Below are positions 52,630-64,000 of a stretch of 64,000 bases of DNA, piece after piece. The notes under the pieces were generated by a model. That model was given only the letters and a program-made list of their open reading frames with translations, had not been told where the DNA came from and did not search any database. The stretch's first letter is position 1. Every line of letters starts with the position of its first letter. The DNA comes from Subtercola boreus (GTDB lineage: Bacteria > Actinomycetota > Actinomycetes > Actinomycetales > Microbacteriaceae), in contig NZ_VFOO01000001.1 in NCBI RefSeq assembly GCF_006716115.1, positions 3,224,001 to 3,288,000 on the forward strand, read 5' to 3'. The position numbers were made by a program, and so were the translations under genes.

Positions 52630-53817
52630 ATGTCCCACCTCGATCACCGCGCGCGACGAATCACCGTCGCAGCCGCCGCCACGTTCGTGCTGCTTCTCGG
52701 GTCGAACATGCCCACACCCCTCTATGCAGTTTTCGCGCAGCAACTCGACTTCGGGGTCTTCACGCTGACCGCGATCTACGCGGCCTACTTTCTCGCCCTC
52801 GTGCCCACCCTGCTCGGTTTCGGCAGCCTCTCCGACCGCTTCGGGAGGCGCCCGGTGGTGCGCGCCGGACTCGCCGTGGCCCTGGTCGCAGCACTCGTCT
52901 TCGCTTCCGCCGACTCCCTCACCGCTCTGTTCGTCGCGCGGGTGCTGCAGGGTGTCGCGGTCGGCCTTCTCTCCGGCGCTCTCTCCGCCACCCTCGTCGA
53001 CGCCTCCCCCCGCCGGGGCGCCACCGTCAGTACCGTGTCGATCCTCGCCGGCGGCGCCCTCGGCCCGCTCGTCGGAGGGCTGCTCGCGCGCGCCGTGCCG
53101 GGCTCGCCCGGAGCTGCGTTCTGGATCGTCGTCGCGTCATCCGCCGTTGTGCTCGCCCTCACGCACACCCTCCCCCGCGAGCGCCGGCCCACCGCCGACC
53201 GTTCGACGAGACGCGCCGCCCTCCCGACCGCCGTCTGGTGGGGCGCAGCGATCGCCGGCCTCGGCTGGGCGACGGCGGGTCTGTCGCTCGGGCTCCTGCC
53301 CACTGCGCTCGGGGTCACCCTCCCCAACACCTCGACTTTCACCGCAACCCTCCTGGTCACCGTCATGATGGGCGCCAGCGCGGTGACCCAACTCACCCTC
53401 GGCGCGACACGGCTGCCGCTCGGTACGGCGGGACTGGTGGCCGTGCCGCTGGCTGCCGTCACCCTCACTCTCGGCCTCGCGCTAGCGTCCCTCCCGGTCG
53501 TCGCCATCGGGAGTGTGCTCTCGGGTGTGGGCCTCGGATGCGCGTTCCTCGGCGGCATGCGCATCGCCGCGGCGGCCGCAGCACCACCGGATCGCGCCCG
53601 CGCGCTATCGATCTTCTTCGCCGTGGCCTACCTCGCAACGGGCGTGCCCACGCTGGCGGTCGGCGCGCTCAGCGCGGTGACCGGCCTGCTGCCCGCGATC
53701 GTCGGGTTCGCGTGTGCGGTGGTGGTGGTGGCCGTCTGCCTGGGGCTACGCGCTCCCGCTGCTCCTCCGCAGCAACGCAACGGGACCAGAACACACCCTC
53801 ATCGTGCACATATGTGA
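52630..53817 (+). CDS. MFS transporter (12-helix)
   Basis: 395 residues, ATG 52630 with AGGAG four bases upstream. Motif A-like GFGSLSDRFGRRPVVRAGL between TM2 and TM3, ARVLQGVAVGLLSGALSATLVD in TM4 and GGALGPLVGGLLA (motif C-like) in TM5. Divergent from the six-gene operon and preceded by two TetR-type sites; probably exports the same compound or a toxic intermediate. Confidence 0.88.
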   Translation: MSHLDHRARRITVAAAATFVLLLGSNMPTPLYAVFAQQLDFGVFTLTAIYAAYFLALVPTLLGFGSLSDRFGRRPVVRAGLAVALVAALVFASADSLTALFVARVLQGVAVGLLSGALSATLVDASPRRGATVSTVSILAGGALGPLVGGLLARAVPGSPGAAFWIVVASSAVVLALTHTLPRERRPTADRSTRRAALPTAVWWGAAIAGLGWATAGLSLGLLPTALGVTLPNTSTFTATLLVTVMMGASAVTQLTLGATRLPLGTAGLVAVPLAAVTLTLGLALASLPVVAIGSVLSGVGLGCAFLGGMRIAAAAAAPPDRARALSIFFAVAYLATGVPTLAVGALSAVTGLLPAIVGFACAVVVVAVCLGLRAPAAPPQQRNGTRTHPHRAHM

Positions 53818-53889
53818 AGAAGTATCAACGTATAAGAAAATCCCAGCACGGTTTTGGGGCCCTTCCTGCAGGCCGCCCTCACACCATCG

Positions 53890-54447
53890 CTAGACGCCTA
53901 AGAGCGCGAGCGGGATGACGGCGATACCGTCTGCCCGCCAGTACGCGACCTTTCCCGTGGTGATGACTGCGGCGTCGGGAAGGTCGGTGCCGAGCTGGAT
54001 TCGTAGCCAGCGGAGGTGCTGCACGTCTTTGTCTGTGACCGCGCTGGCCAACTTCACCTCGAAGGCAACGACCTTTCCGTCGGCACGTTCGACGATCAGA
54101 TCGATTTCGTGGTCACCATTGTGAGTTCGCACGTGGCTGACGGCAGCTCCAGCGCTCTGCGCGTAGACGCGAACAGAAAGCGTCACCAGCGACTCGAAGA
54201 GACCCCCGAGCATCGGCCCGTCTCGCAGCTCCGCCGGGCCGATATCGGATCGTGTGATTAGCGACTGCGCTGATACGCCCAACAACCGTGCGGCGAGCGC
54301 CGGATCGGCGAGTTGGTGTTTGGGGCTCTGGCCGAGCCGGTTGAAGTGATTTCGGCTGGGCACCCACCCTGGCACCTCGTCGAGCAGCCACAACCGCTTG
54401 AGAACCTCGCGGTAATCCTGCGCAGTTCCTCTCGCCGGCGGGGCCAA
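53890..54447 (-). pseudogene. DUF4143 C-terminal fragment of an ATP-binding protein
   Basis: About 185 residues (first possible start TTG 54447). The conserved DUF4143 run is clear: YREVLKRLWLLDEVPGWVP, RLGQSPKHQLADPALAARLLGV, GGLFESLVTLSVRVYAQSA, HNGDHEIDLIVERADGKVVAFEVKLA. Complete members are about 400 residues with an N-terminal AAA ATPase domain; that part (Walker A and B) is missing. The break coincides with a 23-bp tandem repeat at 54441-54486, pointing to a rearrangement. Confidence 0.75.
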
Positions 54448-54486
54448 ACGCTACCGTTTCGCAGGGCCAAACTCTACCGTTTCGCA
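54441..54486. repeat. 23-bp tandem direct repeat at the broken end of the DUF4143 gene
   Basis: GGGCCAAACGCTACCGTTTC... repeats at 54441 and 54464 with a single change. The 12-mer CTCTACCGTTTC from the second copy occurs again at 58252-58263. Beyond it, 54487-54852 holds only weak overlapping frames and no gene I can support. Confidence 0.7.
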
Positions 54487-54852
54487 GACTGTCGCCACTG
54501 TGGCCGAGGGTAGGGAAGGCTGCGCGTCTCTCTGTAATCGGTGTCGGTGTTCCGGATCAGCTGGATGGCTTGCGAGCCGAGCCTGCAATCGCCGGGTTTG
54601 CCTCGGCCTCTTCCGTCGCGGTGGGCTCGATCGCCGTTTCGCGCGCTCGGCGCCAGCAGCGGTGCCCCTGGGCGGCGCGTACAGCGAAATCCCAGCAACT
54701 CGCCTGAAGCCCGCAATTTCAATGATCGAGAGGCGTCCGACGAAATACTTGAGGTTTGCTTGGTTTGACGAGTTGGCGAAGTGGGCGTAGACCGAAACCA
54801 AGGTCAGCGGGGGAATCTGGGCCTGAGAACATATCGAGCATTGGAGCACGAA

Positions 54853-55398
54853 GTGTTTAGAAGCAGGAATTTCCTCCACGGCAGTACCAAAAAATTCGGG
54901 ATCCGAACGATGGCCGTCGCCCTCGCGACAGGAACGATGCTCACGATCGGAATGGCGCCGGCTTCGGCGAACGTAGAATCAGCGCCGACATCCGAAAGTG
55001 GCATCTCTTACGAACTGAGCGTAGGCGGCGAAAGCACCACGCTGGCTGAGGGTCAGTCTGTCGTCTACCCCATGGTGCCCATCGATCCAGACGCCGGCGT
55101 CGTCTATCCGTGTGACTACGGCACAATCACAGTCACGGCTGCGGGCGGGGTCTACCACTACGACATCGAAATGTCCGTTCCTGTCACGAACTTCATTGGT
55201 GCCTTCAGCATCATGGATCTCACCAGCGGTTTGAGTGGTGGCTCGGTCACCGAACTGATCTTCTCGGGAGATGTCCCGACCAGTAGTCTGCGCAACCATA
55301 CGTATTCCGGCACGATCGCGGGAGAGGCGTTTTTTGCAGGCATTTCCGTTGCTCACACCGCACCGAACAATACGTCGTACACCTACAACGACTTTTGA
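54853..55398 (+). CDS. Secreted beta-rich protein, unknown
   Basis: 181 residues from GTG 54853 (GGAG six bases upstream). This start gives a signal peptide with a basic n-region (FRSRNFLHGSTKKFGIR), core MAVALATGTMLTIGMAPASA and cleavage before NVES. The mature part is polar and strand-rich (GTITVTAAGGVYHYDIEMSVP, HTYSGTIAGEAFFAGISVAHT) with one Cys. ATG 54910 would leave no charged n-region. No family recognised. Lower GC than the core genome. Confidence 0.65.
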   Translation: MFRSRNFLHGSTKKFGIRTMAVALATGTMLTIGMAPASANVESAPTSESGISYELSVGGESTTLAEGQSVVYPMVPIDPDAGVVYPCDYGTITVTAAGGVYHYDIEMSVPVTNFIGAFSIMDLTSGLSGGSVTELIFSGDVPTSSLRNHTYSGTIAGEAFFAGISVAHTAPNNTSYTYNDF

Positions 55399-55436
55399 GA
55401 AATCCAGATCGCAACTTCAGACATCGGAGACCCAGC

Positions 55437-55874
55437 ATGAATCCCGCAGACGAGCTAAGAATTCTCATTGGCGATGGCGGCATCACAGAAGACGCGGTGC
55501 GGAGCATCACGGGCATCACCACCGAAAAGCTGAGGTCGTTCCTGAACCAGGCACAATCGGGGATGGTGGTCGCTGATCCGGAGAAGATGGAGGTGCTCTC
55601 GACTGACGAGAGTATGAGGCTGTCCATCCTGGTTGCGCAGCTGACCGCGGGGTTCCAAATCGACGACGACGAACGTCTCACTGCGATCCTCGAGTCACTC
55701 ACCCTCGAGTGCGGCCTCACGGTACCGAACATCGCGCGACTGACAGGCCTCGAAATCGAGGATCTGGAGAGCGGTCTGCACGATCCCGCATCGGTACCGA
55801 TCGAAAAGAAATACGCGCTTGCTCTTAGAAGTTCCTATGTCATAAATGCCGTGGGGCTAGCACGAACTCGATGA
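55437..55874 (+). CDS. Small helical protein, HTH-like
   Basis: 145 residues, ATG 55437 with GGAGA upstream. Three helix-rich units; EDAVRSITGITTEKLRSFLNQ and TVPNIARLTGLEIEDLESGL both read like degenerate helix-turn-helix segments. No family recognised. It follows the secreted protein by 38 bases and may be co-transcribed. Confidence 0.6.
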   Translation: MNPADELRILIGDGGITEDAVRSITGITTEKLRSFLNQAQSGMVVADPEKMEVLSTDESMRLSILVAQLTAGFQIDDDERLTAILESLTLECGLTVPNIARLTGLEIEDLESGLHDPASVPIEKKYALALRSSYVINAVGLARTR

Positions 55875-55900
55875 GCTGATCGGGCGTTGACCGCGATGCC

Positions 55901-56728
55901 CTAGTTCCTGTTGTGCCCCAGCGATCTGGAGCGTAGGACTTCTTTCCAATAACCCTCGCGATCGATCACGTGCTGGTCATCGGTCCGCATCGACCAAAAC
56001 TCAAGCAGAGCGAATCGCATCGTCAAACGAAAATAGTCCTCGCCCTTCGCCGCAAGGTGAGCTTTCAGTCCGACGTTATCCCCGTGAAGCGTGAGGGCGT
56101 ACTGGGACCAGCGTTGCCAGATTCCAGTGTCTCCATACGCCGAGCCGACGTAAGGCTCGCCCGTTACCTGATCATGAATGACGTAGACGCCCTTCATATG
56201 CTCCAACGCAACACGCCAGTCGGGTCGCCCCTGCTTCACAATCGCCTGAATCTCGGCAAGTGAGTGATTGATACGGTCATGTCCCGGAAACGGGTCACCG
56301 TCGAACGGTTGCTCGGCAATCATTGCCACAGACATGTCGTTCAGGCACGCCTCCATGTTCCGACGGCGGTTGCGACCGGCGAGTGCCAACCGAACGTAGA
56401 GCCTCTTGATGAACGGACCCATCAGATCCTCTCGAAGAACGACGTCGTACGAGTGTTGCCGCGGTTCAGGACGGCGGCCTAAAACTTCCCAGATCCCCCC
56501 AAACAGCCACAGCGTCGGATCGCTTTGATCCTGCGCGAGCGAGAAAATAAACTTCCGGTTGAAGTCGTCATTGACGTTGCGCCATGAGTTCCAACGTTGC
56601 CAAGTATCGGGGTCACTGCCGAGCACGTCGATAGGAAATGCTTCGCCGTTGAAAACGGCGCAGTGAAGCTTGTACTCCTTCGGATCGAAGTCCGACGGCA
56701 GCAAGGTCGCGAGCGAGATCAGATCCAT
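55901..56728 (-). CDS. GIY-YIG nuclease domain protein
   Basis: 275 residues, ATG 56728. The C-terminal 100 residues carry GIY-YIG landmarks: GVYVIHDQVTGEPYVGSAYG, catalytic-type Arg in IWQRWSQYA, and the metal Glu in VIDREGYWKEVLRSR followed by Asn (LGHNRN). The N-terminal 165 residues are an unnamed domain (DFDPKEYKLHCAVFNG, FNRKFIFSLAQDQ). Stand-alone proteins of this layout occur in accessory regions; a defence or mobile-element nuclease is possible, target unknown. Confidence 0.75.
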   Translation of the reverse strand: MDLISLATLLPSDFDPKEYKLHCAVFNGEAFPIDVLGSDPDTWQRWNSWRNVNDDFNRKFIFSLAQDQSDPTLWLFGGIWEVLGRRPEPRQHSYDVVLREDLMGPFIKRLYVRLALAGRNRRRNMEACLNDMSVAMIAEQPFDGDPFPGHDRINHSLAEIQAIVKQGRPDWRVALEHMKGVYVIHDQVTGEPYVGSAYGDTGIWQRWSQYALTLHGDNVGLKAHLAAKGEDYFRLTMRFALLEFWSMRTDDQHVIDREGYWKEVLRSRSLGHNRN

Positions 56729-56865
56729 GGTGAAAGGTTAACGCCGAGCAGCGCGAAGCCGGCTGCCAACTGACGCCCAGCCAAGCAAGCTCCCGCCAGC
56801 GCTCTGCCCGCATTGGAACCTCAGAGTCAGCTACAAGCGCCGCGGGTGCGGCAGTAGCACCTCGC

Positions 56866-57695
56866 TCATTTACGTCTGCCCAGATCGCTCGCGCCGGCCG
56901 CTGTCGCAGTATCCGGCACCGGATGCCCGACCACCGCCACCCCGAAGTTCCCACGCGCTCCCAGGGCGATCTCGCCCCACCCAGGCTCACCATCAGACTC
57001 GCGAGCGCTCGGGTTCGCCGCAGCCTCCGCCGTCTTGACGATGAACACCTCGGACATCCGCGACCCCGTCGCGCGACCCGCAGATCCACCCCCGGCAGCA
57101 ATCCGGAAATACATCGACTCCGCGCCATCCACGCCCGGAACCGGCAACACCCCGAGCGGCCAGGTCTCGGTCGGCCACTCCCCCGGCCCGACCTGCGTCC
57201 CGGACAGCACATCCGATGCGTCGCAGAGAACTCCAACGGCGACGCGGCGGCCACGGGAGCCCACATCCCCTCCGCACCAGAGGGCAGCTCCAGATCAAGC
57301 GGAACCCACGACCCGCCGCTCTGCACCCGAACGGGAAGCGTGTACAACTCAGACGTCAACGATTCGTTCGACTGCCCCAACAGCTGCGCCGTCGGCGACT
57401 CTGCGAGTCATCGACCGCGCAGGCCCGTACGGCTTCGCGATCAGCCCGCCATCGCGGTACCCCGCGCCCGCTGTATATCCGCAACCGGCGCACTCGCTAA
57501 TGGGGCACCGCCCTGAACTTCGGCCTCGTAGGGCGCTGCCGACGGGTCAGCAAAAGCCGTATTCGCGAGAACATCGCTCAGTGGCGCAAGTCGCATCCAT
57601 TGATCCTCTGCGGCAAGACTCATCGAGGATGGCACTTCATGCTCCGGATACTCGCAGATGGCGGCGATCGCAAGGACGACCCTCTCACGAAGCAC
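56866..57695 (-). pseudogene. Frame-shifted remains of a secreted/RHS-type protein
   Basis: Three consecutive minus-strand frames look like pieces of one gene: LRERVVLAIAAICEYPEHEV (57695 down), NESLTSELYTLPVRVQSGGSWVPLDLELPSG (about 57370-57280) and WPLGVLPVPGVDGAESMYFRIAAGG (about 57170-57090). The middle piece resembles the start of large RHS/DNRLRE secreted proteins (PVRV...GGSWVPVDL). Stops and frame changes between them mean no intact product. Low certainty on identity. 56729-56865 holds nothing else. Confidence 0.45.
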
Positions 57696-57746
57696 TCAAC
57701 ACCTCATCGCGTTTGCCGGCCGCCGAGGCACAATCGGCCGATTAGA

Positions 57747-57959
57747 TCATTCTTTCGGCAGCCGGTTGATCGCTAGCGACAGGCCGCGCGGGCTGAGCCC
57801 GGTCACGTGTTGAATCTGAACCCAGGTCGCTCCGCCTTTCAGCGCAGCGCGAATCAGCTCATCACGCCGACCAATCAGTCTTTCGCGCTGCTCAGTCACG
57901 CCACGCAACGCCGCTACGGCCTTCCCGAGTTCGTCAAAAATTTCGGCCACAAACGCCAC
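57747..57959 (-). CDS. Small HTH protein
   Basis: 70 residues, GTG 57959. A helical N-terminus (VAEIFDELGKAVAALRGVTEQRERLIGRRDELIRAAL) and a short HTH (GGATWVQIQHVTGLSPRGLSLAINR), as in small actinobacterial DNA-binding proteins. No clear ribosome-binding site. Confidence 0.5.
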   Translation of the reverse strand: MAFVAEIFDELGKAVAALRGVTEQRERLIGRRDELIRAALKGGATWVQIQHVTGLSPRGLSLAINRLPKE

Positions 57960-58020
57960 TCTATCAACCGAGGTTTTGTCACGTTACTGGGTAAAGTCCC
58001 GATCGAAAGCAGGTAACTTA

Positions 58021-58224
58021 ATGAACCTCGAATCGCGCGACGAGAAAATCGTCTCGCCAAATAGCTCAATCGCGCCTCTCCTGAAATCGCTACGCGAAGA
58101 TCTCTTCGATCTCGTAGATGGCCTACTCCCTACGCATATCGTCGATCACGTCGCCCATTCCATCCTGGTGCTCGAGTCTCTGAGCGAACCGCCGGTCCAG
58201 GGAGATGCGCGTCACCTCAGCTAA
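58021..58224 (+). CDS. Hypothetical small protein
   Basis: 67 residues from ATG 58021 (AGCAGG upstream). Amphipathic: PLLKSLREDLFDLVDGLLPTHIVDHVAHSILVL. No family recognised; could be a fragment. Confidence 0.35.
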   Translation: MNLESRDEKIVSPNSSIAPLLKSLREDLFDLVDGLLPTHIVDHVAHSILVLESLSEPPVQGDARHLS

Positions 58225-58400
58225 GCAACCTTTCCCCCGGATCCGGTAGCGCTCTACCGTTTCATATGCCCACCTGGAGCCATGTCGTCCGAGCCACAAC
58301 CACAACGGCCGTCCGTGGCTGTCGGGAAACCAGTCCTTCAGGCGACCAACAACACTTCACTCGCTTACCGCGGGACTGTACCCGAAAGTCCTAAATGTGC

Positions 58401-58440
58401 TTGCGAGACACGGAAGACGCCGAGATGAGTTTGGGAGACA
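58401..58440. repeat. Pair of TTG(C/G)GAGACA repeats, IS-end-like
   Basis: TTGCGAGACA at 58401-58410 and TTGGGAGACA at 58431-58440 are exactly 30 bp apart. Spaced short repeats of this kind are typical of transposase-binding ends of some IS families; no transposase remains nearby. Confidence 0.3.
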
Positions 58441-58453
58441 GAACGCAGCAGCG

Positions 58454-58524
58454 AGATCACGGGGATTCCGGTCGACCGTGATCTAGTAGGTGGCTGCCTC
58501 AACAACCTTTACTTTTTTGAGGCA
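58454..58524. other. Two consecutive hairpins in a gene-free stretch
   Basis: AGATCACGG (58454-58462) pairs perfectly with 58476-58484, and TGCCTCAA (58495-58502) pairs perfectly with 58517-58524; the second loop contains T6. The surrounding 58225-58710 holds no gene I can support. Could be terminators, IS-end structure or a small RNA. Confidence 0.4.
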
Positions 58525-58710
58525 AGCCTGCAGCTATCTCAAGGGTCCTTAACAATCGCTGGCAAGGTGGCCGACTTGGGCTCACCTCAATGTGCATTAG
58601 TTGGGCGTGAAAAACCGGCGTCCCAGGGTTGCAACCTATAGAGCAGAGAGACCCCTACCAAGCCCCAAATTCCGAGGCCTGGTAGGGATTAGGTGTTCGC
58701 GCTGCCGCGG

Positions 58711-58887
58711 CTATTCCTCTTTGCTCTCGAAGGTCTCTCCTTCTTGGACCGTGAAATGCTCGCCTTTTTCCGGATCGGATCCGAAGAAGCTGTCGTGCTC
58801 TCCAGGCGCCGACGGTACGACGCCTTTGTAGATGACATCGTTCAGGTCGTCGTTGTTTGAGTCGTCTTCCGAATCGTTCTCTCCCAT
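58711..58887 (-). CDS. Small acidic protein
   Basis: 58 residues, ATG 58887 with AGGGGG five bases upstream that overlaps the stop of the preceding membrane gene, so the two are coupled. Very acidic: MGENDSEDDSNNDDLNDVIY at the start and GEHFTVQEGETFESKEE at the end. No family; by position it could bind or neutralise the membrane protein. Confidence 0.55.
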   Translation of the reverse strand: MGENDSEDDSNNDDLNDVIYKGVVPSAPGEHDSFFGSDPEKGEHFTVQEGETFESKEE

Positions 58888-58890
58888 GTT

Positions 58891-59361
58891 TCACCCCCTC
58901 GCGTTGATGATAGGGATGAGGGCGGTGATGCCACTAACAAGTAGCAGCATCACCGTGCCTGCCAAGAACCATTTCATTGCCGTCCTAGTGTGACCGACAA
59001 TGTTTTTGAGGTCACTCTCGGCCCGGTCATATTCTTTACGAAGTTGACCGATGAGGCTCACGCGAGCATCGTATTTGTTGGCATTGGCCACGCTGCTGAG
59101 CACGCCGACGGGGTGCATCACACGGGTTCCAGTTACCGTCATGGACTTCACGGCGTAGACCGTCGCGAGCACGAAACAAATAATGGCCAGGGTGTAACCC
59201 GAATTCGCTAACGCTGAGACTAGCGAGGCCGCGATGCCTGAGGCACCAAGGACGCCGGCTGACCGGCCCCGGATGCTTGAAATGCGCCCTATCTGTCGTT
59301 CACGAAGCCGCAGTATCTCCTCGTGCGCGAGAATTAAAACGTCTTCCCGCATTTTCGACAT
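58891..59361 (-). CDS. SLATT-like membrane protein
   Basis: 156 residues, ATG 59361 with AAGGAAAG upstream. N-terminal helix (ILAHEEILRLRERQIGRISS), a hydrophobic hairpin (VLGASGIAASLVSALANSGY, LAIICFVLATVYAVKSM), a charged helix (RVSLIGQLRKEYDRAESDLKNIVGH) and a last membrane segment (KWFLAGTVMLLLVSGITALI). The two-helix hairpin followed by a long cytoplasmic helix is reminiscent of SLATT defence effectors, but this is only layout similarity. Confidence 0.55.
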   Translation of the reverse strand: MSKMREDVLILAHEEILRLRERQIGRISSIRGRSAGVLGASGIAASLVSALANSGYTLAIICFVLATVYAVKSMTVTGTRVMHPVGVLSSVANANKYDARVSLIGQLRKEYDRAESDLKNIVGHTRTAMKWFLAGTVMLLLVSGITALIPIINARG

Positions 59362-59525
59362 CTTCTTTCCTTCCAGACTGGTCTCAGCAGAAAGACCCGC
59401 CCCGAGTCTTCGCTGCTAAAGATACTCAGCTGGTTCGGGGGAGCGCGAGCGAAGCGACGGCCTCAGAAGTTTGCCGGCCGATCGCGCGGTACATAGTGTC
59501 TGCGCCCTGCCGGGTCTGTTGGGTC

Positions 59526-59642
59526 CTAGATCGAACCACCCAGATTAATTTTTACGCGGCGGCGGGTGAGATCCTCGTCAATATCTCGCGCATCAGGTAG
59601 GGGCCGTGCCAGTCGGTCTAGTTTGATCACCATTGGGGTGTC
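59526..59642 (-). pseudogene. Serine recombinase (resolvase/invertase) fragment
   Basis: The frame reads KLDRLARPLPDARDIDEDL followed by TRRRVKINLGGSI and a stop. This is the strongly conserved core of resolvases, where the sequence continues GGSVYDPTDPVGR; here a stop replaces the Tyr and the next bases still read G-P-N-R-P-G-R. The catalytic N-terminal Ser region and the HTH are gone. A clear relic of a mobile element. Confidence 0.75.
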
Positions 59643-59672
59643 CCTAGCCCGGTTCTGCGCGACACAAGCTTC

Positions 59673-59954
59673 ATGCCCATAACACTCCCTCGCACAGCGG
59701 TAAGTCTCAAAGAACTGCAGGAAGATGACCTCATCGTCGCCTATAGAGATGATGATGATTTTCGGAACGGTGAAGCAGCTCTCGGTGGCGCGATTCTTCT
59801 TCGCCATGCCAACGCTCGTCCGGGCTCATGGGACGTGACCTATCGCGACAATCGGAGGGAAGCAGACGGACTCATCAACTTGAGCGACTTTGCGCACAGC
59901 TTCAAGATTTCGGCCGGACCCCGCAGTATCGGCGACCATGGGCCCTGGCGATGA
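59673..59954 (+). CDS. Hypothetical protein
   Basis: 93 residues from ATG 59673: VSLKELQEDDLIVAYRDDDD, GGAILLRHANARPGSWDVTYRDN and GPRSIGDHGPWR. Balanced composition, but no ribosome-binding site and no family; it starts next to the recombinase relic and may itself be a fragment. Confidence 0.35.
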   Translation: MPITLPRTAVSLKELQEDDLIVAYRDDDDFRNGEAALGGAILLRHANARPGSWDVTYRDNRREADGLINLSDFAHSFKISAGPRSIGDHGPWR

Positions 59955-60097
59955 GCCCTTCTATACGAGCGTTTGACCTGCAGCGGCGGCGACCAGTAGC
60001 GCCATGAGAACGCGGCCGCTGAGCGCTATGGTTCAGTGTTCGAGCCGACCACTGGGGTCCGGGGGGCTCAGAAACTTTCGGGCTTCGATGCAGAAGA

Positions 60098-60112
60098 TGG
60101 CCGTAAAGGCCA
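60098..60112 (+). terminator. Short hairpin followed by CTTTTC
   Basis: TGGCCGTAAAGGCCA has a perfect 5-bp stem and is followed by CTTTTC, a weak intrinsic-terminator look, in the gene-free 59955-60191. Confidence 0.3.
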
Positions 60113-60191
60113 CTTTTCGTCTTCGTACCCTCGCCTCGCCAAGAACCCCTAAGCCGCCGCAGGCGCCGTCTAGGGTTCGATCCACACGGAT

Positions 60192-61010
60192 ATGGTTAGC
60201 AACATGGCCACAATCCGTCGAAGCATCTACTGGACCGTCCTCACGAGTGCCGGAGACCCGACCGCCCTGATCACGAAAGCGGTCTCGACAACCGACTTCA
60301 CCGTCACCTCTTCAACTCCCACGTCGATTGTTATCGAGGTGCCCCGCGCGATGATCAAAAACCGCTGGGCCGCGACCATCCAAGGCACGCTCTCGCCCGG
60401 CGATTTGGGTACAGACATCGAATGGGTCGTCGAAGGCCTCGGCAACAAACACTTCGAGCACATGGTGACCATCGGGGAAGGAATGCCCGAAGGGTCACTA
60501 TATGATCACGGAATCCCTGCCGCAGTCGCCAAAATCGCAATGAAATTCTTCGGACGTAAAGAGATCCGGCACCTTGCCAACGTGCTCGACCGCGGCGAGT
60601 TCGTGCACGCAATCGGGGTAGGTAACCTGGGCGGCAAGATGGGCATCGTAGCTCTGACCGACAACCGACTGCTCTTCCTCGAAAAGAGTATCGGCAGCGA
60701 GAACCTCGTCGAATTCGCTCTGGGTTCGATCGGCGCCCTCTCCTTGGGGAAGAAGATGGGCGGGGAGACATTGACCGTGACCCACTCGGGAACGAACGTC
60801 ACAATCACGACGCTGCAGCACGGCCAGGGAGACGCCATCGCACGCAAGTTCCGGGAGCTCTCGGAGAAACCGGCAGCGGTGACAGGAGCCGTCACGCCAG
60901 CAGCTGATCCCATTGCACAAATCGAACGGCTCGCAGGCCTCCGCGACAAAGGCATCCTGACGGAAGCTGAATTCCAAACTCAGAAGACGCAACTCCTCCT
61001 CAACCTGTAA
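60192..61010 (+). CDS. PH-like (YokE-type) and SHOCT domain protein
   Basis: 272 residues from ATG 60192 (ATG 60204 is also possible). N-terminal 85 residues are strand-rich (FTVTSSTPTSIVIEVPRAMIKNRW); then a bacterial PH/YokE-like domain (KEIRHLANVLDRGEFVHAIGVG, GIVALTDNRLLFLEKS, ENLVEFALGSIGALSLGKKMGGETLTV) and a C-terminal SHOCT motif (DPIAQIERLAGLRDKGILTEAEFQTQK). SHOCT and PH-like domains often mark membrane-associated or phage-related regulators; role unknown. Confidence 0.8.
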   Translation: MVSNMATIRRSIYWTVLTSAGDPTALITKAVSTTDFTVTSSTPTSIVIEVPRAMIKNRWAATIQGTLSPGDLGTDIEWVVEGLGNKHFEHMVTIGEGMPEGSLYDHGIPAAVAKIAMKFFGRKEIRHLANVLDRGEFVHAIGVGNLGGKMGIVALTDNRLLFLEKSIGSENLVEFALGSIGALSLGKKMGGETLTVTHSGTNVTITTLQHGQGDAIARKFRELSEKPAAVTGAVTPAADPIAQIERLAGLRDKGILTEAEFQTQKTQLLLNL

Positions 61011-61029
61011 CAAGCCGGCCGAGAGCCAT

Positions 61030-61318
61030 CTACGCATCGTCGACACAAGGCGAGCTGACATAGTTGCTCAATGGGGAAGGGGCCATGTTCTCCGTCAACT
61101 CGTCTACTCGCTCGTTGGCTTGTCTTGCAAAATAAGCAGATTCGTAGCCGGCGGCGCAGCCGATGACGGCGACTCTCGCTTTTAGCTCCGCGTCTGAGAC
61201 CCGGACCAATACGATCGGTGAGATGAACGCGACCGTCGTGTAATTGAGGGGGAGTCTTTGCCAAATGAGTTGAAGGTATGAACGCGGCGTACAGGCGATT
61301 TTTACGATTCAGACCGAG
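61030..61318 (-). pseudogene. Start-less coding remnant
   Basis: A minus-strand frame without start codon reads RSYLQLIWQRLPLNYTTVAF, ISPIVLVRVSDAELKARVAV and IGCAAGYESAYFARQANERV to a TAG at 61030. Composition is protein-like but no family is recognised; probably the tail of a lost gene. Confidence 0.3.
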
Positions 61319-61635
61319 ATACTCCCGAAATCAAGGTAACCCTAGAGAAATCACAGTCAGGTATTAGCATCACCGTGGCTTGGTCGAGCCCGGAGGTTCC
61401 GTACGCATCCTGGTTCATGACGAGCGCCACCACCTTGCCGGGCCTTCAGGTAGAGCCCAAACCCGTGCCGAAACGGGTGCTGTTTGAAGATTCTCATGGG
61501 ACTGTGCTTCTCATCCGTTGTTTGGCTCGAGGCTTCCACGCAGATTCTGGGGGACCTGGGAGTGGCACGTTATGGTCTCGCGCAGCAATTATGGACGTTC
61601 GCGAGGACAAGGAATATGACCGCCCACACGGCTAG
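61286..61635 (+). pseudogene. Internal fragment resembling an ApeA-type N-terminal domain
   Basis: The frame opens after a TGA without a start codon: FYDSDRDTPEIKVTLEKSQS, VLFEDSHGTVLLIRCLARGF, HADSGGPGSGTLWSRAAIMD, then REDKEYDRPHG and a stop. The pattern of a strand with F-x-D-x-H-G-x-(V/L)-x-L followed by a glycine-rich G-x-G turn reminds me of the N-terminal domain of ApeA-type defence proteins; identity is uncertain. Both ends are missing. Confidence 0.35.
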
Positions 61636-61683
61636 CAGACGGAGATATCTGGGCTGTCTGGTCGGTTCTGGCGGGGCGCGTTC

Positions 61684-61744
61684 GCCGGCCCTCCCGGGGC
61701 CGGCGGCGAGGGCTCTGCCCTCACGCACCCGCCCGCTGAGCGGG
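61684..61744. other. Cluster of three perfect hairpins
   Basis: GCCGGCCC/GGGCCGGC (61684-61704, 5-nt loop), GAGGGC/GCCCTC (61708-61722, loop TCT) and CCCGC/GCGGG (61732-61744, loop TGA) follow each other within 61 bases, right after the fragment ending at 61635. Strong structure in an otherwise A/T-richer stretch; terminator array, recombination site or structured RNA cannot be told apart. The rest of 61011-61893 has no intact gene. Confidence 0.5.
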
Positions 61745-61893
61745 AATGGATGCATTAAGGCAGCACGAGTGGAGACAAAGGCAATGGCCTACCCAGGGCT
61801 ACGGCATTCAGCATCCGACACATGTTTGCGTAGTCGCACCCCTTTACGGGCAGTGTTCCTCGCATGCAAACCTAGTGCGAGGTGTCATTTTGG

Positions 61894-62295
61894 TCAGCCC
61901 ACTCGGCGCCAGAGCCGCCTCCACCAAGACGGCCGGTTTGGCAAAGGCGCTGTTCGTACTCGGTAATTGGTGAGCGCGCGGCGGTCGGACGCCTGCGCCT
62001 TCACTGCGTCCGCGGCGTCCAACGGGTCTTGCCAGTCAACTTCACCTCGGGTTATGAAGTAATGGGAGTTGCATGGAAGGCCTGTTGCGCCGACTGACGG
62101 TTTGAGGGACACCTCGCCGTCGAAGACGACCCGCCAGCGGGCCGGAGACAACTTCGTTACCACTTCGCGCCCGCAGCCACTTGGACAGATATGCCCCGCG
62201 GTCGAGTAGTTCGTGGAAACGTACAGTACGCCTGGCTCCATTGGTGCTGGGAACGACTCCACGAAGCTTGCAACGTAGTGATCAATCTCGGTCAT
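61894..62295 (-). CDS. DUF6527 protein of the ubiquitin-like conjugation operon
   Basis: 133 residues; ATG 62295 overlaps the E1 stop as ATGA. DUF6527 landmarks: H35-I-C-P-S-G-C-G (Cys37, Cys41), WRVVFDGEVSLKPSVG, and LPCNSHYFI (Cys75, Ser77, His78); the His/Cys set looks like a structural metal site next to a conserved Ser-His. In the known association of multi-ubiquitin, ThiF and DUF6527 genes it is thought to be the processing/deconjugating peptidase; that role is from memory of the family and not shown here. C-terminus is Trp/Arg-rich. Confidence 0.85.
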   Translation of the reverse strand: MTEIDHYVASFVESFPAPMEPGVLYVSTNYSTAGHICPSGCGREVVTKLSPARWRVVFDGEVSLKPSVGATGLPCNSHYFITRGEVDWQDPLDAADAVKAQASDRRALTNYRVRTAPLPNRPSWWRRLWRRVG

Positions 62296-63452
62296 TCAAG
62301 GTCGCCGTTTCGGATCTCGTTCGAGAAGAGCTTGTAGATGGTGAGGTTTGAAGGTGCGTGGGTTGCATGGAATCCGAGGTACCGTTTCCACCGAATGACG
62401 GCGAAAATCGCGTTTAGGGCGTTCAGTTCTGCCAGCTGGATGTTGCTGCTGTAGTCGTCTTCGCCCGGCGGAACGGCCGGAGCGGTCGGTAGGGGCGAGT
62501 CCTCCCCGGGTAGGTAGGCCGAGACCTTCGCTATGCCGGTGAGACCGTGCTCGCCTTCCCTGAAACTCATGCCGACATCGATGAATGGCACACCGCGGTC
62601 GCGAAGCCACCGCATGATCGCGGGTCGGGCCTCCGCGTCGGCGGCCGCCAGAAACACGAACGTTGCTCCTTCTAGAAGATGCAGGTTCTCCTCCGTGAGG
62701 GCGACGGGGTGCGCGGTAATACCGATGTGCATGCGTCCGTACTCGGCGGCAAAGTACTCGGCCTTATTTGGCTGTGCGGCTAAGACCTCGATGGCCACGG
62801 CCCCAGGGGCGCGGTAGGCGTTGTGAGTTTCTAGCGTGTCGCCGTCGATGAGGATGATCCGGTCGACCCAGGTCTTGGCGACTTGATCGAGGATGTAGCT
62901 GCCCGTACCGCCGACGCCGACGATCGCGATGGTGTGGCCCCTAAAAAGGTTGTTGAGCGTAATCAGTCCGGCACGGGTTGTGTTCGTGTCCGGGTAAACG
63001 AGCGGGAGGTCATCCGGCACGACCTGGTAGGAACCGTCCGTGATGTCGGCGACGGTTGGGTCGACCTGCCAGGCGGGGTTCCGCAGGATGTGTGCGTACT
63101 GCCGGATCTTGTCATGCAAACCCGCATAGGCGCCGCTCGGCGGCTTGAAGGACATCATGAACTCGGCGCGTTCCCCAACACCAAAATCATGTGGGTCCGG
63201 GGTCGCAAGTGGTCCGCCGTTTTCGTCGCGAGGCTCCTCGCCATCGAACCAGATCCGGTGATCGGTCGCGTCGGTAAGGACGTCTTCGAGAATGGTCACC
63301 GGCAGTACCAGCTGGCCGTCACGGCGTAGCCCAGACGGCGCCAGGTAGGGGAGGCGGCGGATGATGAGGTGCCCACTTCGGAGCACCAGGTCGTAACCGT
63401 CAGCGACGAGCCGGGCGATCGAACTGTCAGGACCGGTTGGCAGGTTCGACAT
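62292..63452 (-). CDS. E1-like enzyme, DUF6791 plus ThiF adenylyltransferase domain
   Basis: 386 residues, ATG 63452, overlapping the ubiquitin-like gene by 26 bases. Residues 1-155 match DUF6791 (LVADGYDLVLRSGHLIIRRLPY, DHRIWFDGEEP, HDKIRQYAHIL). Residues about 165-340 are a ThiF/E1 adenylation domain: GVGGTGSYILDQ (179-190), Asp203/Asp205 in IILIDGD, HN (210-211), Arg214 and Lys230. It should activate the Ubl C-terminus with ATP. The whole protein contains no cysteine, so a classic E1 thioester cannot form on it. Confidence 0.92.
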   Translation of the reverse strand: MSNLPTGPDSSIARLVADGYDLVLRSGHLIIRRLPYLAPSGLRRDGQLVLPVTILEDVLTDATDHRIWFDGEEPRDENGGPLATPDPHDFGVGERAEFMMSFKPPSGAYAGLHDKIRQYAHILRNPAWQVDPTVADITDGSYQVVPDDLPLVYPDTNTTRAGLITLNNLFRGHTIAIVGVGGTGSYILDQVAKTWVDRIILIDGDTLETHNAYRAPGAVAIEVLAAQPNKAEYFAAEYGRMHIGITAHPVALTEENLHLLEGATFVFLAAADAEARPAIMRWLRDRGVPFIDVGMSFREGEHGLTGIAKVSAYLPGEDSPLPTAPAVPPGEDDYSSNIQLAELNALNAIFAVIRWKRYLGFHATHAPSNLTIYKLFSNEIRNGDLE

Positions 63453-63684
63453 CGAAGACCATCCCGTCCTTCACTTCGACGTTCTTGCCCGGACGCAGAG
63501 CGTGGTCGGAGCCGTGTCCGCGACTGTACTCGACCGTCGTGCCGGCCGGATCGTAAGGCTGCCCCGGGAAAGCGAGCTCGACGACCTGCTCGAATGTGAT
63601 CTTCTTCTCGGACCAATGCTGCGCCCGAGTGTTGACGATTATCGTCGCTGTCTTGGTTTTTTCTCCAAGTGCTTCAACGGTCAT
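63427..63684 (-). CDS. Ubiquitin-like protein (multi-ubiquitin domain family, single domain)
   Basis: 85 residues, ATG 63684 with AAAGG upstream; ATG 63711 would add nine residues and lacks a site. A beta-grasp fold of the multi-ubiquitin (PF14452-like) family: TIIVNTRAQHWSEKKITFEQVVELAF, TVEYSRGHGSDHALRPGKNV, EVKDGMVFDVEPANRS. Only one domain is present. The C-terminus is ANRS and not Gly-Gly, so either another residue is conjugated or the end is trimmed first. First gene of the operon. Confidence 0.9.
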   Translation of the reverse strand: MTVEALGEKTKTATIIVNTRAQHWSEKKITFEQVVELAFPGQPYDPAGTTVEYSRGHGSDHALRPGKNVEVKDGMVFDVEPANRS

Positions 63685-63740
63685 GGTGTTGCCTTTCTGT
63701 GGGAAGTGCACGATCCGATTGAAGGTGCGCCGTGGCCATC

Positions 63741-63771
63741 ACTGTATCAGCAAAGCGGCACTGGTGTTCAA
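63741..63771 (-). promoter_or_regulatory. Possible promoter of the ubiquitin-like operon
   Basis: On the minus strand TTGAAC (63771-63766) and TACAGT (63746-63741) are separated by 19 bases, 57 bases before the Ubl start. The spacer is long, so this is tentative. Confidence 0.3.
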
Positions 63772-63868
63772 GTGATTTGACGTGTCGTGTCACTCGTGCT
63801 TCATTTGGGCGTTATTCTCGAAACATGCAACGGATCCCTCATTCGTCAGCGACGTCACCGAGGACGGC

Positions 63869-64000
63869 GTGACCGGCTCCTCAGGCGCCTCGGGCGCAGA
63901 ACAGATCGACCTCGCCCAGTTGGGCACCATGCTCCGAGAGCGACGCGGAACTTTATCGCTCCGACAGGCAGCCGCTGAGGTGGGTGTCAGCTTCAGCACG
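63869..64000 (+). CDS. XRE family HTH protein (3' end outside window)
   Basis: 44 codons from GTG 63869 (GAGGA just upstream) to the window end: a short Gly/Ser N-terminus, then DLAQLGTMLRERRGTLSLRQAAAEVGVSFST, the start of an XRE/Cro HTH. Divergent from the ubiquitin-like operon with a 184-bp shared region, so it may regulate it or be the first gene of a partner unit. Confidence 0.6.
   Translation, partial: MTGSSGASGAEQIDLAQLGTMLRERRGTLSLRQAAAEVGVSFST

Follow-up and report, generated by a model that had tools for sequence, protein, structure and literature searches.

A compact ubiquitin-like operon in Subtercola boreus with a serine-ending Ubl, a cysteine-free E1-like enzyme and a putative divergent regulator pair

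Layout and relatives of the operon

We examined a stretch of 64,000 nucleotides from Subtercola boreus (RefSeq assembly GCF_006716115.1, contig NZ_VFOO01000001.1, positions 3,224,001 to 3,288,000; hereafter the window), which near its right edge carries three intact open reading frames (ORFs) on the minus strand at 61894-63684, encoding in order a ubiquitin-like protein (Ubl), an E1-like enzyme and a DUF6527 protein. The Ubl gene (63427..63684) encodes 85 residues with a single Multi_ubiq domain (PF14452, E 9.2e-13) and the C-terminus ...FDVEPANRS before the stop codon. The E1-like gene (62292..63452) encodes 386 residues, identified through Pfam, AlphaFold2 and Foldseek as DUF6791 plus ThiF, and the DUF6527 gene (61894..62295) encodes 133 residues with a probable zinc site, C37-x3-C41 ... 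C75-x2-H78 (PF20137, E 1.6e-20). The genes overlap by 26 nucleotides (Ubl/E1) and 4 nucleotides (E1/DUF6527), and all the Pfam matches in the trio, to Multi_ubiq, DUF6791, ThiF and DUF6527, exceed the gathering score, so that a first-pass annotation made from the DNA alone, which had described three overlapping minus-strand genes of these families, is borne out. In the host genome of 4.21 Mb the E1, Multi_ubiq and DUF6527 are each present as a single copy, and a second E1 match (E 0.037) falls on 47 residues in a different frame.

The same trio is widespread. A tblastn search with the E1 found 118 plasmid records, from Acinetobacter and rhizobia through Streptomyces, and a scan of genome contigs confirmed at least 269 E1 loci, of which we analysed the best 80. 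Among these 80 the closest E1 has 81% identity and comes from a Glaciihabitans metagenome-assembled genome, and going by the titles of their records they belong to Actinomycetota, Pseudomonadota, Bacteroidota, Verrucomicrobiota, Cyanobacteriota, Spirochaetota, Acidobacteriota, Bacillota and others. Since the identical trio recurs in the same order in dozens of genomes from many phyla, its association is far beyond chance. A DUF6527 gene lies on the same strand within 600 nucleotides of the E1 stop codon in 87 of 89 loci; in the other two (L037 and L043) none was detected within that distance, and L037 reaches the contig end. DUF6791 was present in 3 of 12 genomes of the genus, including that of S. 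boreus itself, and in 2 of 395 further genomes sampled from the phylum, a patchy presence that makes the operon an accessory trait. The E1 gave zero matches in 50,697 phage records and six pattern matches in viral contigs, none of which was confirmed, and carriage by phages or viruses was rejected on these searches.

For the comparisons that follow we used 93 DUF6791-type loci, namely the window, 8 plasmid and 80 genome loci, two from the genus (L003 and L005, the second almost a copy of the operon in the window) and two drawn independently from the phylum (L117 and L118). The Ubl counts leave out L020, where the E1 start is broken or rearranged and the Ubl unreadable, and L076 was read by eye. 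The E1 alignment (A2) holds 78 of the 93 loci; among those outside it are L117 and L118, which were added later, and L020, L029 and L076, which were out of register. Its sequences resolve into 61 clusters at a threshold of 70% identity and into 25 at 50%. The further alignments A4, A6 and A7 hold 71 of those 78 E1 loci, 63 rows and 37 rows, respectively.

The Ubl ends in an invariant serine at a fixed overlap

The terminal-serine codon of the Ubl lies at 63430..63432 (minus strand). The last Ubl residue is Ser wherever the Ubl could be read, in 92 of 92 loci including the window, and among 37 aligned Ubls this Ser and N18 are the only invariant columns. The 3' end of the Ubl gene also overlaps the start of the E1 gene by a fixed length (63427..63452, minus strand), the E1 start codon standing exactly 26 nucleotides before the end of the Ubl stop codon in 91/92 loci, again including the window (89 ATG, one TTG and one GTG). 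The sole exception, L029, has lost the overlap and its Ubl still ends in ..TTRS. All four TCN codons encode the terminal Ser in the 86 loci counted (36 TCG, 26 TCT, 15 TCA and 9 TCC) and the E1 residue encoded over it varies between P, H, R and L, which argues that it is the serine itself that is held and not the DNA. Eight codons from the Ubl end the situation is reversed: the codon is NAT in 84 of 86 loci, giving Asn, Asp, His or Tyr, and this Ubl residue therefore follows from the E1 start codon.

The first-pass annotation made its assignment depend on a beta-grasp fold, and this stands on the family profile, which matches the solved multi-ubiquitin protein ZDHYS365 (PDB 9cd2) at E 1e-23 over nearly the whole profile length. 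The match is to the last Ubl domain of that protein, which with its 222 residues, of which 144-222 are matched, exceeds the single-domain Ubl of S. boreus in length. As its chain ends in ..TDKS, 9cd2 looks like a Ubl of the same sub-form. The solitary domain is no peculiarity of S. boreus, since in 31 of 86 loci the frame that holds the Ubl has no more than 125 codons and could not accommodate two such domains; single-domain Ubls are thus common.

The E1-like enzyme has an adenylation fold and no invariant cysteine

The ThiF adenylation domain (matched stretch 62562..62933, minus strand; PF00899, E 8.8e-12) carries a GVGGTGS nucleotide loop at residues 179-185. Invariant in all 78 aligned sequences are the glycines of its GxGGxG motif (G179, G181, G182 and G184) together with D203, D205, R214 and K230. 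The AlphaFold2 model, built with the 78-sequence alignment, has a mean predicted local distance difference test score (pLDDT) of 88.2 and a predicted template modelling score of 0.85. Its best Foldseek match is Citrobacter BubCD (9eae, E 7.4e-14), followed by entries for MccB, UBA5, PaaA, MoeB and ThiF, so that the ATP-site geometry on which the first-pass annotation had also staked its assignment finds support in a confident model whose listed PDB matches are E1-like enzymes, with one caution at Ala271 that is taken up below. N-terminal to ThiF lies the DUF6791 domain (residues 12-156, 62985..63419, minus strand; PF20590, E 1.4e-25), in which H65, S101, K115, Y119 and Y153 are invariant among the 78 sequences, as is R160 just beyond it; some of these six residues could form an active site.

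Across the same 78 sequences cysteine is invariant at no position. The column richest in Cys has it in 65/78 and is Arg (R75) in S. boreus, whose E1 has no cysteine at all, as is also true of 3 of 85 other E1s counted. A thioester on an E1 cysteine is therefore not a general step in the DUF6791-type family. Other components of known conjugation pathways are also missing. Prok-E2_E was found neither in the trio nor in the host genome, in a search in which none of the controls but 3 of 296 genomes were positive. Prok-JAB was likewise absent from the E1 and the host genome, with 8 of 14 control genomes positive, and an E2_E or JAB gene elsewhere in the host genome was rejected on these searches. 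Prok-E2_B and UQ_con were also not found in the host genome, a weak negative in that zero controls were positive. The first-pass annotation had called the system complete, a claim that fails for want of an E2, a JAB and an invariant E1 cysteine.

These features raise two alternatives to conjugation. In the first, which takes its cue from MccB and PaaA, the E1 would adenylate the Ubl C-terminus to modify the Ubl itself with a nucleotide or other tail, the Ubl acting as a carrier or signal. MccB and PaaA are indeed among the nearest solved folds after BubCD, beside UBA5, and neither an invariant E1 cysteine nor Prok-E2_E or Prok-JAB was found; moreover, the fixed non-Gly end recalls the fixed terminal Asn of MccA. 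However, this fold is common to E1-like adenylation domains, hence the match does not choose between them, and Bub operons have the same Ubl family and the same DUF6527 partner; we think this alternative unlikely. In the second, the Ubl would be a sulfur carrier or have another small-molecule role similar to ThiS and MoaD, with the E1 leading to a thiocarboxylate, as might suit a fold shared with ThiF and MoeB and the missing invariant cysteine. Against it, the Ubl ends in Ser and not in Gly-Gly, neither a rhodanese gene nor one for thiamine or molybdopterin is annotated next to the trio in the 8 plasmid loci, and the distribution is patchy and accessory, down to the 2/395 genomes of the phylum draw, which makes such a role very improbable.

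The DUF6527 protein

The four putative zinc ligands of the DUF6527 protein, C37, C41, C75 and H78, are retained by every one of 63 aligned sequences, and the motif is present in 81 of 82 relatives. No PDB relative was found by profile at E<=1, and DUF6527 is not named in the literature searched. The part of Iyer, Burroughs and Aravind 2006 (PMC1779556) that deals with polyUbl operons predicts for their Cys/His protein a zinc finger, perhaps a treble clef, possibly one that recognises targets. We also observed two Bub-type operons with an additional gene around DUF6527: in Bradyrhizobium (L103:5752-7356) a phosphotransferase gene stands between the E1 and DUF6527 genes, and in Rhizobium (L110:4758-5366) a gene for a Clp protease proteolytic subunit follows DUF6527, a possible link between Ubl tagging and proteolysis.

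Comparison with polyUbl and Bub operons

The operon is of the 'type 6e' polyUbl kind described in 2006, in the sub-form in which another domain replaces JAB. The type 6e row and the polyUbl section of Iyer et al. (PMC1779556) between them include polyUbl operons of this non-JAB sub-form, a solo Ubl, a Cys/His protein and an actinobacterium. Similar to that sub-form as its polyUbl section describes it, the S. boreus operon has a Ubl within the range of one to three beta-grasp domains (here the Multi_ubiq Ubl), a non-JAB domain N-terminal on the E1 (here DUF6791 before ThiF) and a separate metal protein with four Cys/His residues. Domain X of that paper (PMC1779556) is probably DUF6791, a match by description. 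Two differences stand out in what the section states: the published metal signature is C-x3-C-x(35-38)-H-x2-C, whereas here it is C-x3-C-x33-C-x2-H, with the last pair in another order and at another spacing, and an unfused JAB is said there always to be adjacent as its own gene (PMC1779556), which is not so at this locus. Conjugation of the Ubl to targets by type 6e operons is itself given there as a prediction (PMC1779556).

The operon is also related to the Bub pathway, as the first-pass annotation had proposed, and the Citrobacter Bub operon (BubA, BubB and BubCD plus DUF6527; PDB 9ea4, 9ea5, 9ea8, 9eae and 9eav) agrees with it in its Multi_ubiq Ubl, its ThiF E1 and a DUF6527 gene in last place. 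It is however not strictly Bub. A strict Bub operon has Prok-E2_E (BubB) and a Prok-JAB domain on the E1 (BubCD), neither of which was found at the window trio or in the host genome, and the solved Citrobacter BubA construct ends in Gly (residue 229, Gly in a close homologue) where the window Ubl ends in Ser. Bub itself reportedly uses oxygen-ester intermediates. DUF6791, PRK06153 and BubCD are not mentioned among the matches listed in our literature search. PADLOC matched the E1 with models all labelled 'E1-E2' (among 25 of 26 models listed), all within residues 142-291, the adenylation part, and gave zero matches for the Ubl and DUF6527. Assignment to a CBASS- or Bil-type antiphage system was rejected on this pattern.

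To place the serine end we sampled JAB-type loci with a piece of the Citrobacter E1, which gave 13, of which L113 (Thermus) was dropped as it lacks a Ubl gene, leaving 12 (L098-L103, L110-L112 and L114-L116). In six of the 12 the Ubl is fused to E2-like sequence, the junction being marked by NNGE or TTEG; in two the stop codon directly follows ..TTEG, and the other four end in Ser (L100, ..GQES, and L101, ..DDNS), Cys (one) and His (one). A Pfam search found Prok-E2_E in 3/3 E2 candidates (L098, L099 and L103) and Prok-JAB in 2/3 E1s (L098 and L099, not L101). Loss of JAB and E2 thus coincides with a Ubl that is made at its final length and ends in Ser, and the two may be causally paired.

Much of what the first-pass annotation had singled out as unusual has been known since 2006. 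The operon kind, the solo Ubl, the absence of JAB and the actinobacterial host all have precedents in the type 6e material of PMC1779556, and the missing E2 gene is hardly distinctive when in the 8 DUF6791-type plasmid loci, too, the trio has no E2-annotated neighbour. The points that go beyond that annotation are the invariant Ser end, the fixed 26-nucleotide overlap, the cysteine-free E1 and a divergent pair of regulatory genes described below. For the serine end and the overlap, as for the lack of an invariant E1 cysteine across the family and the five-gene cassette, we found no description in the literature searched, the primary Bub papers lying outside it, and the polyUbl section of PMC1779556 mentions neither the Ser end nor the overlap.

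A five-gene cassette with a putative regulator pair

Just upstream of the trio and divergent from it stand a helix-turn-helix (HTH) gene and an ImmA/IrrE gene. The HTH gene, CapH-like by its layout, starts in the window (63782..64000, plus strand; HTH_31 E 1.7e-7, HTH_3 E 1.2e-6) and its frame continues beyond it to 64366, where it is followed outside the window by the ImmA/IrrE (Peptidase_M78) gene at 64363-64911 (Pfam M78 E 1e-16), whose HExxH motif is present as HELAH. The first-pass annotation had missed this pair at the window edge. Together the five genes form a cassette occupying 61723..64000 of the window, with its right end outside at about 65030.

The layout recalls the CapH and CapP regulators of CBASS and other immune operons, which in the passages of PMC13373217 and PMC10904395 that concern them likewise appear as divergent HTH and ImmA/IrrE (Peptidase_M78) genes; both an HTH gene and an HExxH peptidase gene are present beside our operon, and the likeness is one of domain family and layout. 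In those passages single-stranded DNA activates CapP, which then cleaves CapH (PMC13373217; also PMC10904395), and 219 of 544 Bub operons are said to carry CapW or CapH plus CapP (PMC13373217). Such a pair is also frequent in the DUF6791-type family: among 102 upstream ORFs (of 140 listed) from 63 loci, Peptidase_M78 (34/102) and HTH_3 (33/102) were the two commonest families, with DUF4325 and HATPase_c (as in CapS/CapK) at 2 each and WYL at 1, and by the HExxH motif as a proxy a peptidase stands upstream in 35 of 63 loci. At 12 loci (L010, L013, L039-L041, L055, L060, L061, L063, L067, L080 and L085) we also observed a long ORF, about 3.4-3.7 kb in length, upstream of the Ubl and in the same direction, which is a UvrD-type helicase in both annotated cases (L010 and L013).

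A congener (G006) has the same five genes over 3310 bp at 93.8% identity, corresponding to 61723 to about 65030 in window numbering. In the stretches compared its flanks are unrelated to those of the window on both sides, and the module therefore appears to have moved as one unit; in G006 an IS110-type transposase is found no more than 5 kb away, as is a group II intron reverse transcriptase. Between the two congeners the ratio of nonsynonymous to synonymous substitution rates (dN/dS) is 0.15 for the Ubl, 0.13 for the E1, 0.42 for DUF6527, 0.14 for the HTH gene and 0.05 for the peptidase, values that come from small change counts, smallest for the Ubl with 4 synonymous and 2 other changes, but that all indicate purifying selection.

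G+C content falls from about 0.69 to 0.57-0.62, a real drop across 54-64 kb of the window, and the low-GC stretch beside the operon has few long ORFs. Such a neighbourhood might suggest a decaying remnant without present function. The five genes are however open end to end, and to their dN/dS of 0.05-0.42 against the congener can be added E1 values of 0.12-0.21 obtained with three remoter relatives, so that decay seems to us highly unlikely. An Rfam scan of 53500-64000 was uninformative, as were scans for tRNAs and promoters. Upstream of the Ubl, a single imperfect inverted repeat and two direct repeats, both short, were detected. Other genes of the stretch include a DUF4143-type protein at its border (53890-54447, minus strand, 185 residues), matched by the profile only from position 44 and perhaps truncated; an HTH_60 protein (55395-55874, plus strand); a protein with a GIY-YIG-like C-terminal domain (55901-56728, minus strand) at E 1.7e-4, just below the Pfam cut-off; a 156-residue protein (58891-59361, minus strand) in which inspection by eye suggests membrane stretches and SLATT_1 is matched below threshold (E 0.056), SLATT domains being defence-associated; and a bPH_3 plus SHOCT protein of 272 residues (60192-61010, plus strand) adjoining the cassette.

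Discussion

Taken together, these observations are best explained by a DNA-damage-inducible, pared-down Ubl modification system of the polyUbl (6e) kind, a reading to which we give about an even chance; its transfer chemistry is predicted, and an antiphage role, as the first-pass annotation suggested, is putative. By analogy with the published CapH and CapP, single-stranded DNA would activate the ImmA/IrrE-type peptidase, which would cut the HTH repressor and release the operon. The Ubl, made at its final length with its fixed serine end, would need no maturation by a JAB, and because E1 translation starts at a codon fixed 26 nucleotides inside the Ubl gene, the two products may be tied to one another. 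The ThiF domain, for which fold and motifs speak, would then adenylate the carboxylate of the terminal Ser. In the fourth and weakest step, with neither an E2 nor a cysteine in the E1 available, the activated Ubl would pass directly to its target, or else would first form an oxygen ester on a DUF6791 side chain, with S101 as the best candidate, while the DUF6527 protein with its Cys/His site might hold the target or act in an E3-like manner. That the Ubl is conjugated along this route without cysteine, E2 or JAB, directly off the adenylate or by way of an oxygen ester at Ser101 and with DUF6527 as target holder, we put forward as a doubtful proposal.

Transfer might also be achieved by other means. 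The system might borrow enzymes for transfer and removal from elsewhere in the host, or DUF6791 might be a strongly diverged E2 of the UBC-like kind. A hint comes from the isolated DUF6791 model (pLDDT 85.9), for which 4 of the 50 Foldseek matches listed are from E2/UEV entries (Atg10, UBE2H, TSG101-UEV and UBE2R1, the chains assigned by title), and the domain has a common His-Cys pair (H65 in 78/78, and Cys at the position of R75 in 65/78). Those four matches, however, lie at E 0.52-2.3 with TM scores of 0.18-0.32, the Cys75 of relatives is Arg in the window E1, no Prok-E2_E was found in the genome, and two further E2 searches were negative, though their controls were also zero. A profile search of DUF6791 against the PDB gave only three matches (E 0.63-0.95), which we take as chance. 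With an hhalign comparison against five Prok-E2_E sequences reaching a probability of 0.1% and no PDB chain matched by Foldseek at E<=0.001 (best 0.17), a hidden E2 in DUF6791 is unsupported, and on balance this alternative appears improbable to us.

The same two negatives count against the damage-inducible modification system as well, since with DUF6791 matching no known E2 or JAB its fourth step is left without structural support, and several further points weigh on that side. S101 is a candidate chosen by its invariance, and the activity at every proposed step is predicted. E1 column 271, which may correspond to the magnesium-binding Asp of MoeB, is Asp in 69/78 sequences and Ala271 in S. 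boreus, with Asp at 272 (the same is seen in the near relatives L018, L019, L022, L005 and L006). A terminal Ser also occurs outside the DUF6791 type, in L100 and L101, and DUF6527 is the fastest-evolving of the five genes. Finally, it is by its domain families and divergent layout that the regulator pair is taken as CapH/CapP-like.

At 3.3 kb the cassette is small enough that it could be reconstituted in vitro with the three proteins in purified form; the terminal serine, being invariant, offers a test at a single residue, and the regulator pair suggests a simple inducing signal. Were the route free of cysteine, E2 and JAB to prove true, it would be the shortest from E1 to target of which we know, and conjugation by an E1 that has no cysteine and no E2 would bear on the origin of ubiquitin-type chemistry. 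If on the other hand the enzyme modifies only its own Ubl, the set of Multi_ubiq, ThiF and DUF6527 proteins would serve more than conjugation.

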